DNA of 64,000 nt from Deferribacter desulfuricans SSM1 (GTDB lineage Bacteria > Chrysiogenota > Deferribacteres > Deferribacterales > Deferribacteraceae). Positions 33,541 to 36,556 of this stretch are shown here, in pieces (positions within the stretch are counted from its first letter, which is position 1; each line of letters opens with the position of its first letter). Location of the stretch: positions 1 through 64,000 of the forward strand of contig NC_013939.1 of the NCBI RefSeq assembly GCF_000010985.1. Reading direction: 5' to 3'. The notes under the pieces are model-generated. The model worked only from the letters and a program-made list of their open reading frames with translations. It searched no databases and was not told where the DNA came from. The translations under genes and the position numbers were made by a program.

Positions 33541-34245
33541 ATGAAATTCAAAATAAATTCAACTGTTAATTACAATGATATAGATTTAAACAATAAAATC
33601 CTTTTAAGCACCCTTGCAAGGTTACAACAAAAAGCAGCTACTTTGCATTCTGATAATGTGGGCTATACCAATAATTTTTTTGTTGAAAAAGGGTTAACTT
33701 GGGTTTTGCAAAAATTACATCTGAAAATAAATAGATACCCTACTCTATATGAAAATTATGAATTTATTACATGGAGTAAAGGTGCTAAAGGGTATTTTGC
33801 CTTTAGAGATTATGAAATGATTATTAATAATGAAACTGTAATTACAGGATGTAGTGTTTGGCTTTTGATAGATATAAACAAGAAAAAACCTATAAGAGTG
33901 AGTGATGAAATTGTAAATAGATATACCGTCGAAAATGTAGATTCTATGGATTCTGATATATATAAATTTAAAGTTTCAAAAGATGGTGAAACTGTTTTTG
34001 AGAAGAGATACACATTGAGATATAGGGATTTTGATAGAAATAAACATCTTAATAATTCAGTATATTTTGAATTTATTGAGGATGCAGTATATGAATTTTC
34101 TAAAAAGAATATCAAAGAAATAAAAATAATGTATCAAAAAGAGATCCCTTTTGGTATTTCAGATGTAAATCTTTCATTAAAAAGACAAAACAATAGTTTA
34201 ATTTTCCAGATCGAAGATTACGCTGCTGGTGAGATATTCATTTAA
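33541..34245 (+). CDS. Acyl-ACP thioesterase family protein
   Basis: A 234-residue double-hotdog thioesterase related to plant FatA/FatB. It probably releases fatty acids from acyl carrier protein. Each hotdog half shows a typical segment: the first YNDIDLNNKILLSTLARLQQ, the second YRDFDRNKHLNNSVYFEFIE, with the conserved N-x-H-x-N-N type active-site stretch (NKHLNN). No ribosome-binding site precedes the ATG. The next gene starts 11 bases after its stop. Confidence 0.86.
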   Translation: MKFKINSTVNYNDIDLNNKILLSTLARLQQKAATLHSDNVGYTNNFFVEKGLTWVLQKLHLKINRYPTLYENYEFITWSKGAKGYFAFRDYEMIINNETVITGCSVWLLIDINKKKPIRVSDEIVNRYTVENVDSMDSDIYKFKVSKDGETVFEKRYTLRYRDFDRNKHLNNSVYFEFIEDAVYEFSKKNIKEIKIMYQKEIPFGISDVNLSLKRQNNSLIFQIEDYAAGEIFI

Positions 34246-34256
34246 GTTAGGGAGTT

Positions 34257-36191
34257 ATGATTAAACCTTATATAAAAATAACATTACTACTGCTTATAAT
34301 TTTCAACTCTGCTTTTGGAGATAACAGCCAACCTATTAAAAGGTTATTTCCTGATATTTCAAAACTTGAAGGTGGTGAAAATAGGTGGCTGACTACGGCG
34401 TTTATTGAAGAGAAAAGCAATCAATGTTATAGGCTTAACAAAAAATATACATATTTTGGTGATAATGAAACTGTAATATTGGACATAAAAAGGAAAAAAG
34501 TATTTAAAGTAGATGTGGATTTGTATTTTTGCAAAAATGGATTAATTGCCAATGAAATATACGAAAATTTATTGAAAAGTATAAATAGCTTATACAAACA
34601 AGATATAGCTGTAGGGGATAAAGGGGTTATTTTTGCAGATAAAATTGGTCAAGGATTTAATGCTAACTATACACTTCTTTTTGTGATGAATAATTTTTTA
34701 GTTAAGATAAAATCAGATGATGGCTTTGCTTTGGTTGATTTTGCAGATTATTTAGAAAAGAGCATCAATTCATTTATTTATAATAACTTGACACATTATT
34801 TGTCTGATACAGTAACTTTGACCTTTATTAAGGATGGTTATATTTCAAAAAAGAAAGAGATTAACATTGGTAATAGTTTAAAAAATAATATTGAAATTGA
34901 TGGGTATGTTTTTGATTATAAAGAAAAGCCTATCGATAATGTTAATATTAAAGTTGAAAATTTGGGATTAGTAGCCAAAACAGATCAAAATGGTTTTTTC
35001 CGTCTCAAGTTAGATTTAGGTAAAAAGCAATATAAATTAATAAAAACTAAAACTTTTTTGGAAAAGATTGATTTGAAAGATAAGAATGTTAATCCGTTAG
35101 TTTATATAAAATTAATTAACAATAACCTATATCAAAACTTCTTGATTGATGCTAAAAATAAAAGTGTTTTTATAAAAGTTGATAATTCATATAAACTGAT
35201 TAATACCTATAATTTTAGTAAACATGAAAACAGAATCTCTTTTTTATTAAAATGTGGTGAAGGGGTTTTTAACGACTGTATGCTGGGAATAGATTTTGAA
35301 ATAAAAGGCAGTGGAGATGTTGAAGGCTCCTGGAATCTAAAAGGGAAAAAAGGGGTTGTAAGTGGCGTTGTTTTAACAAAAACAGAAAAGACAGCATCAA
35401 AATTATCTGAATATTGCGACATTTTAAAGTTTAAAGGCGATTTGGAAGGTCAAATAGTAGAGTCCACTAATGAGTTACAAGAAGAGAAAACGTTAAATAT
35501 GCTTTACCTGGATTGCAGTAAAATTAAAAAGGATTACTTTTTAAAAAGTCTGACGATAAGATTTCCTTTTAATGAAAAAGGGGCAAAAATTCCTTTATAT
35601 TCTGGGAGTGTAGAATCTTTAAATTATATACTATACGATTTAATAGATTATTTTAAAATAATTGATAACTTTGCGACATTATCTATCTCAAAAGATAACG
35701 TGGGTGATGGAAAATATATTGTGGTTATACCAGAAGAGTTGAGAGACTTAAATGTGGAAAATAGTGAAATTGTTCTTGTTAAATATGATGATAATATAAA
35801 TCTTCAGGCGGGTAAAATTAACAGTTACTTTTCTCACACTAACAAAGATATTGTTAGTTTTAAAAATCAAATAACAAAAGATGGGAAAAAAGATGAACTT
35901 ATTATTGTAAGTTTTGAGAATGTAGTGGGTTTGCTTACAGATATAGAAATCGTCTCTGAGGGGCTAATAACACTTAAGTGGAATTTAGATCCTTATGATG
36001 TTTATCCAGCAATTGCTGTTTTTGAAAAAGGTAAGTTTTTGGGTAATAAAATAAATATTCAGTTAGATGGTTTTTCTAAACAGCTAGATTTATATTTTGC
36101 AGGATCAAATTTGATGGACAAAGATAAAACTTTTGTTATATTAACGATAAATGGAGAAAAATACAAAGTGAAGGTGAATAATGGGGATTAG
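34257..36191 (+). CDS. Exported protein of unknown function with carboxypeptidase-regulatory-like domain
   Basis: A 644-residue protein with a signal peptide (about 1-21, cleavage near AFG-DN), so probably periplasmic or secreted. Residues about 215-265 form a small beta-sandwich like the CarboxypepD_reg domain (IDGYVFDYKEKPIDNVNIKV then TDQNGFFRLKL). The remaining segments are rich in beta strands and I do not recognise them. It has AGGGAG before the ATG, lies 11 bases after the thioesterase, and overlaps the small UGA-containing gene by 11 bases. This suggests a three-gene unit. No function is assigned. Confidence 0.72.
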   Translation: MIKPYIKITLLLLIIFNSAFGDNSQPIKRLFPDISKLEGGENRWLTTAFIEEKSNQCYRLNKKYTYFGDNETVILDIKRKKVFKVDVDLYFCKNGLIANEIYENLLKSINSLYKQDIAVGDKGVIFADKIGQGFNANYTLLFVMNNFLVKIKSDDGFALVDFADYLEKSINSFIYNNLTHYLSDTVTLTFIKDGYISKKKEINIGNSLKNNIEIDGYVFDYKEKPIDNVNIKVENLGLVAKTDQNGFFRLKLDLGKKQYKLIKTKTFLEKIDLKDKNVNPLVYIKLINNNLYQNFLIDAKNKSVFIKVDNSYKLINTYNFSKHENRISFLLKCGEGVFNDCMLGIDFEIKGSGDVEGSWNLKGKKGVVSGVVLTKTEKTASKLSEYCDILKFKGDLEGQIVESTNELQEEKTLNMLYLDCSKIKKDYFLKSLTIRFPFNEKGAKIPLYSGSVESLNYILYDLIDYFKIIDNFATLSISKDNVGDGKYIVVIPEELRDLNVENSEIVLVKYDDNINLQAGKINSYFSHTNKDIVSFKNQITKDGKKDELIIVSFENVVGLLTDIEIVSEGLITLKWNLDPYDVYPAIAVFEKGKFLGNKINIQLDGFSKQLDLYFAGSNLMDKDKTFVILTINGEKYKVKVNNGD

Positions 36192-36339
36192 TGAATACAT
36201 TGGTTTAATCCTTTTTGTTCTGGTTATTGTTTTTTTGAGTTTTTCAAAAGGTGGTGGCTGAGGGGCTACTGCATGTAGTATCGAGGATCGATACAAAGAG
36301 GACAAAAAATCAAAAAAAGATAAAAAGAAAAAAAAGTAA
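36181..36339 (+). CDS. Candidate selenoprotein: 52-residue single-pass membrane protein with in-frame UGA (Sec27)
   Basis: Read through its only in-frame UGA (codon 27, 36259-36261), this frame gives a 52-residue protein. It has a hydrophobic helix (about 6-22, IGLILFVLVIVFLSF), then SKGGG, selenocysteine, GATAC, and a highly charged lysine-rich tail ending at TAA 36337-36339. A cysteine lies five residues after the Sec, a plausible redox partner. The start has AAGGTG upstream and overlaps the previous gene by 11 bases. A hairpin suitable as a bacterial SECIS follows the UGA. I do not recognise a named family. If UGA is a real stop, the product is only a 26-residue membrane peptide. selA/B/C/D are not in the window, so Sec capacity is unproven. 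Confidence 0.6.
36262..36294 (+). other. Putative bacterial SECIS element
   Basis: Downstream of the UGA at 36259-36261 is a perfect 6-bp stem GTATCG (36278-36283) and CGATAC (36289-36294) with a five-base loop AGGAT. The loop starts 22 bases after the UGA and has G as its second base. Known bacterial SECIS rules call for a small loop about 16-37 nt after UGA with a G in its first two bases. E. coli fdhF has a similar AGGU-type loop. Confidence 0.55.
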
Positions 36340-36402
36340 AATAGTTCAAAGTGTAGTGAAATAAATCAGTACAACTTTTTAAGAATACTTTATTGACTCT
36401 AG

Positions 36403-36554
36403 GGTGTTGCACAATAATAATTGCTTAAACACCTCAGATTGCTTCGCTAACGCTCGCAATGACAGCAATTTTGGGGCATCGCGAGGAAGCGTAAGCTGAC
36501 GAAGCGATCTCAAAACTACTTCGATATCAAAAAATAGATCTATTGTGCAACATC
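36403..36554. repeat. 152-bp inverted-repeat element (MITE-like)
   Basis: Ends are near-perfect 15-bp inverted repeats (GGGTGTTGCACAATA and TATTGTGCAACATCC, one mismatch). Inside are two facing copies of a GC-richer repeat: AGATTGCTTCG...CGCAATGAC on the left and, on the opposite strand, AGATCGCTTCGTCAGC...CGCGATG. The whole could fold into a long hairpin. It sits between two convergent genes, where it may also stop transcription. It encodes no protein and resembles short dispersed repeats common in bacterial genomes. Confidence 0.72.
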
Positions 36555-36556
36555 CT

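Follow-up and report, generated by a model that had tools for sequence, protein, structure and literature searches.

A small gene at positions 36181-36339 on the forward strand of the window, the 64,000-nucleotide stretch of Deferribacter desulfuricans SSM1 DNA analysed here, is on sequence grounds almost certainly a bacterial selenoprotein gene whose UGA at codon 27 is decoded as selenocysteine (Sec). The UGA would be read by SelB with tRNA-Sec, as directed by a hairpin at 36278-36294. An earlier note on this DNA, made from the letters alone, had put forward a tiny membrane selenoprotein here, and that reading is now strongly supported by the conservation of the UGA, the hairpin, the presence of the Sec genes and the co-occurrence of the gene with the Sec machinery. 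The host genome consists of two contigs totalling 2,542,933 bases, and the window lies on the one of 2,234,389 bases.

Gene structure and the downstream hairpin

The frame opens with an ATG at 36181, reaches the UGA at codon 27 (36259-36261) and runs for 25 more codons to a TAA at 36337-36339, an arrangement that the earlier note had described and that holds on rechecking the sequence. The predicted product, MGISEYIGLILFVLVIVFLSFSKGGGUGATACSIEDRYKEDKKSKKDKKKKK, has 52 residues including Sec. Also present, as had been claimed, are the 11-base overlap of the start with the upstream gene, hereafter c0 (34257-36191, forward strand), and an AAGGTG before the start (ribosome-binding site region and ATG, 36169-36183); a Shine-Dalgarno-like motif lies ahead of the start in 20 of the 21 Deferribacterota homologues described below. 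In order along the forward strand, the gene encodes a transmembrane helix (residues 3-24, 36187-36252), the predicted Sec, Cys32 (codon TGT, 36274-36276, outside the hairpin), the residues that overlie the hairpin and a lysine-rich C-terminal tail (36295-36336).

The hairpin, which had been proposed as a perfect 6-bp stem with loop AGGAT 22 nt past the UGA, is indeed there; when folded, it gives a stem of 7 bp capped by a GGA triloop (GUAUCGA-GGA-UCGAUAC, loop at 36285-36287) at a distance of 23 nt from the UGA. In the published model of the bacterial SECIS element, an apical loop of 3-9 nt with a G within its first two positions caps a stem of 4-16 bp, and lies 16-37 nt after the UGA (PMC13188914). 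The geometry here, with 7 bp, a GGA loop and a distance of 23 nt (29 nt in family f5), falls within these bounds. Against a minimum free energy criterion for bacterial SECIS elements of -7.5 kcal/mol or lower, we obtain -5.9 kcal/mol for the bare 17-nt hairpin, -8.7 for 36259-36305 and -19.4 for 36245-36320, and the element fits the published model (PMC13188914), the weakness of the bare 17-nt hairpin being the one exception. Of all the TGA triplets in the window, 2,401 counting both strands, the one at 36259 alone has 20 open codons before and after it together with a perfect stem of SECIS geometry (at least 7 bp, a loop starting with G, 16-37 nt downstream). The further, lower stem that is predicted around the UGA in the window was rejected, as it is not conserved as one structure.

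The host selD gene offers a comparison within the same genome. It has its own in-frame UGA, followed 17 nt later by UAGGUCC-GGA-GGACCUA, a hairpin that equals that of the small gene in stem length (7 bp) and GGA loop but has an unrelated stem sequence. In most of the phylum's other selD genes a GGA, GGC or GGG loop caps 6-8 bp, and stems are compensated, for example UAAGCCC-GGA-GGGCUUA. selD and the small gene, unrelated in sequence, thus have in common what SelB would need to recognise, and the common loop provides a ready handle on SelB recognition in Deferribacterota. Like SECIS-directed selenoproteins such as host SelD, the small gene carries an in-frame UGA and a hairpin with a G-starting loop inside the coding sequence, and like them it would depend on SelA, SelB, SelC and SelD; the two proteins themselves have no domain in common, the small one being a single membrane helix with no enzyme fold. 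In the selD genes of genus g8 (L095, L098, L100 and L102, from G026, G028, G027 and G024, respectively) the UGA is kept but the hairpin is altered, with a five-base loop or an unclear stem, and SelB recognition may be different in this genus.

Homologues within Deferribacterota

Translated searches found homologues in 21 of 51 genomes of the phylum, distributed over five families (E 1e-28 to 2e-7), all with TGA at the same codon, and a profile search confirmed the same 21 genomes; these are numbers of genomes, taken without a tree, and not of independent events. Twenty of the 21 homologues share an identical hairpin; the genomes with the gene each contain its exact string a single time (one differs by one base), and no other genome of the phylum contains it. 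The six codons AGT ATC GAG GAT CGA TAC, encoding SIEDRY, have undergone zero synonymous changes in the 21 homologues, with one ATC-to-GTC replacement, unlike the codons 5' of the UGA, which vary freely with most synonyms in use. The SIEDRY peptide is conserved because the hairpin dictates it, and its conservation is therefore not separate evidence for a protein.

Conservation beyond the UGA, on which the earlier note had staked its proposal, extends outside the hairpin: the frame is open in all 25 homologues, counting four from a second phylum, and the Cys codon changes only synonymously (TGT in 6 and TGC in 15 of the 21 Deferribacterota genes). This invariant Cys lies five residues past the Sec, or seven in family f5, where six extra bases between the UGA and the hairpin leave the frame intact. 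Nucleotide differences in the tail are mostly at third codon positions, 57 versus 21 and 19 at the other two, in pairwise comparisons that are not independent of one another. The glycine linker before the Sec, part of the layout originally described, is conserved inside Deferribacterota and not conserved in the second phylum.

The codon itself is TGA in 21/21 Deferribacterota and 4/4 second-phylum homologues. Homologues with Cys in place of the UGA, for which the earlier note had suggested a search, did not appear by tblastn or HMM search in the 51 genomes of the phylum and 334 outside it, nor did one occupy the position between c0 and kdsA, the syntenic site; the gene is instead absent where the Sec machinery is absent. 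As every homologue has the UGA and none a Cys, Sec seems, from these alignments, to be indispensable in this family, which in being Sec-only differs from most bacterial selenoproteins. A hairpin-like site in the selA-less genome G020 was dismissed as chance, having two mismatches and lying inside a carbamoyl-phosphate-synthase-like gene; a weak match in G031, which is antisense within an ftsH-like gene, was set aside too.

Co-occurrence with the selenocysteine machinery

The host genome holds all of selA, selB, selC and selD, the genes for which the earlier note had suggested a check, with selA and selB adjacent and a tRNA-Sec gene present. SelA is encoded in 20 of the 21 genomes with the small gene, the exception being G007 (73% complete), which has a UGA-containing selD and a tRNA-Sec match. 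When a Sec user is defined as a genome with any clear Sec gene (selA, a full-scoring selB, selC or a UGA-containing selD), the small gene is found in 21 of 24 Sec users versus 0 of the 27 other genomes of the phylum (Fisher p ~2e-11, uncorrected for ancestry). The Sec users that lack it are G038 and G050 (nearly complete) and G049 (64% complete). The same pattern is visible at a single locus: several f5 genomes that encode SelA carry the gene between c0 and kdsA, whereas in their selA-less relatives G020-G022, and also in G030, G033 and G038, c0 is followed directly by kdsA with no such gene between them. None of the 11 molybdopterin-oxidoreductase loci of the host (L108-L118) contains an in-frame UGA within its matched domain; formate dehydrogenase thus does not seem to use Sec in this host, and the small protein could be among a fairly small number of clients that keep the Sec machinery in place.

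Two rival readings concern the UGA itself. Were the UGA a true stop, the gene would specify a 26-residue membrane peptide, and the hairpin would serve regulation or RNA processing and have nothing to do with selenocysteine; the part before the UGA does form a complete membrane helix, and the most conserved part after it is the hairpin, which could be kept as RNA alone. However, the codon is TGA and never TAA or TAG in 25 genomes, although the neighbouring genes end in TAA 83 times, in TGA 54 times and in TAG 42 times, the Cys codon after it varies only synonymously, and both the f5 insertion and the tail keep the frame. The stem length and GGA loop that the hairpin has in common with the selD SECIS, and the way in which the presence of the gene tracks the Sec machinery, argue in the same direction, and we regard a true stop as extremely improbable. 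The gene could also encode a leader peptide that senses selenium status, with read-through versus termination at the UGA regulating the next gene, as its tiny size and its overlap with or close abutment to neighbouring genes in several genomes would allow; but the downstream gene differs among families and is convergent in Deferribacter and in G011-G013, and the reading frame of the Cys and tail is maintained, which makes this reading very unlikely.

Divergent members in a second phylum

The profile search, run over 385 genomes, gave one extra match with an in-frame TGA, at a per-genome E of 0.003 that is weak on its own. The corresponding protein, MLESLMPIVFVIGYFVLMRYVLPKLGVSTUMSSACSVEDRQKYTTQDKPEDA, has a membrane helix, the UGA and a Cys at +5, and its gene carries the hairpin CUGUCGA-GGA-UCGACAG at 23 nt. 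With a model that by then included this first homologue, a divergent gene with one TGA at the same column and the Cys at +5 was found in 4 of 4 genomes of the second phylum; in two of these the hairpins are GGUCGA-GUC-UCGACC and a variant that has lost one outer pair. When the five hairpin types are compared, three of seven pairs are changed on both sides (0-1 in slid controls), and 91% of cells are still paired (13-37% in slid controls).

An ArsR-type regulator lies upstream and a thioredoxin with an N-terminal zinc ribbon directly downstream of the gene in G286 and G386, with an FmdB-like zinc ribbon between regulator and small gene in G286; in G385 it is preceded by genes for an RND adaptor and pump, and in G148 by those for a YgaP-like membrane protein and a fragment of a pump. 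At loci L160 and L157, the ArsR regulator, in one order with the FmdB-like zinc ribbon (not always present), the small selenoprotein and a thioredoxin 2-like protein, forms a conserved cluster.

Strict peptide patterns run against 84,980 GTDB species matched in Deferribacterota only, these patterns being blind to the divergent second-phylum forms, and viral contigs and plasmids searched for the family yielded nothing. As the profile search found a second phylum where the strict-pattern scan did not, more members, and hence a distribution wider than the sampled genomes, are likely.

Predicted topology and function

Both hydropathy and AlphaFold place a helix at residues 3-24 (pLDDT ~80-87 over the first 20 residues), and in the AlphaFold model the Sec/Cys segment is flexible and a C-terminal helix is of low confidence. 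Acidic residues precede the helix and an excess of basic charge follows it in most members, a distribution that by the positive-inside rule puts the Sec and Cys at the cytoplasmic face. The product would thus be a single-pass inner-membrane protein, predicted N-out/C-in, with Sec27 and Cys32 immediately inside the membrane, in a flexible stretch that leads into the lysine-rich tail. No reactive residues other than Sec and Cys are conserved, from which we infer a membrane-tethered Sec/Cys redox pair. Such a pair would cycle between selenol/thiol and selenenylsulfide forms and be re-reduced by thioredoxin or a similar reductant, and the protein, tethered in the membrane, would serve a nearby substrate as a reductase or redox relay, a role that seems to us quite possible and the likeliest of those considered. 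A thioredoxin neighbour occurs in G286 and G386 only and not in Deferribacterota; these two genomes hint that thioredoxin is perhaps the partner.

The Sec and Cys might instead bind a metal or reactive sulfur or selenium species at the membrane, making the selenoprotein a carrier or sensor with no electron-transfer catalysis. Small Cys-rich single-pass membrane proteins are known beside metal transporters, and the second-phylum genes near ArsR-type regulators (G286, G386) and an RND efflux pump (G385), like the YgaP-like protein and pump fragment in G148, are in keeping with such a role. With two chalcogen ligands per chain only, though, a dimer would be needed, and the Deferribacterota neighbourhood (c0, kdsA, alaS and a HemW-like gene) gives no metal link; we consider this function rather unlikely.

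Relation to known proteins

The redox protein proposed here has a layout similar to that of the eukaryotic selenoproteins K and S, in which one membrane helix is joined to a flexible, sometimes glycine-rich, cytoplasmic segment with Sec, the difference being that here a bacterial SECIS lies inside the gene. The earlier note had drawn this comparison without claiming homology; the analogy of layout stands, and no Pfam match accompanies it in the 21 Deferribacterota and four second-phylum members. FeoB-associated Cys-rich proteins likewise have an N-terminal membrane helix and a Lys/Gly-rich segment with reactive residues, but the small protein has one Sec and one Cys rather than a Cys cluster, gives no match to the Pfam or NCBIfam model of that family at E up to 10 (subject to the HMMER filters), and has no feoB among the neighbours examined. 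More generally, no Pfam or NCBIfam model (June 2026) scores above cut-off for any member.

A 2026 catalogue lists 119 prokaryotic selenoprotein families and subfamilies (PMC13188914, Table 1). The small protein is the same kind of object as these, with Sec at a putative redox site and in anaerobe lineages, but none of the 119 has U-x4/6-C after a single membrane helix, in a comparison of names and listed motifs and, where NCBIfam or Pfam models exist, of HMMs. We did not find a selenoprotein family of ~50 residues with this single-helix layout in the catalogue, and it would be new relative to it. The word selenocysteine is absent from the literature on Deferribacterota genomes that we found, and literature searches returned no description of the family, although open-access coverage is incomplete and an earlier description is possible. 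Genes of this type are missed twice by annotation, being very short and having an internal stop codon, and annotation would halve the gene at the UGA. We tentatively suggest that it represents an ancient, Sec-only family of ~50-residue membrane-tethered redox proteins, present in at least two phyla, missed at the UGA and among the few clients, together with SelD, that maintain the Sec machinery in these anaerobes.

Genomic neighbourhood

The upstream gene c0 encodes a ~644-residue exported, beta-rich, CarboxypepD_reg-like protein and adjoins the selenoprotein gene in 17 of the 21 genomes. In a fold search, its AlphaFold model matched nothing convincingly over the whole length; the matches were partial and weak, the PknH extracellular domain among them. 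We considered c0 as an obligate partner and rejected it: Calditerrivibrio-type genomes have the selenoprotein without c0, and other genomes have c0 without the selenoprotein. Its homologues (~640-730 residues, with two invariant cysteines) are widespread in Deferribacterota also where the selenoprotein is lacking, often beside kdsA.

Further upstream, an acyl-ACP thioesterase gene (33541-34245) has a sub-threshold NCBIfam match (E 0.0003) to the SelT/SelW/SelH model over 44 residues, which is probably spurious. Downstream, a MITE-like element (36401-36556) lies between the selenoprotein gene and cobalt-transport genes; its 16-nt terminal inverted repeats (AGGGTGTTGCACAATA, 94%) are separated by 124 nt, and it is present as a single copy in the window.
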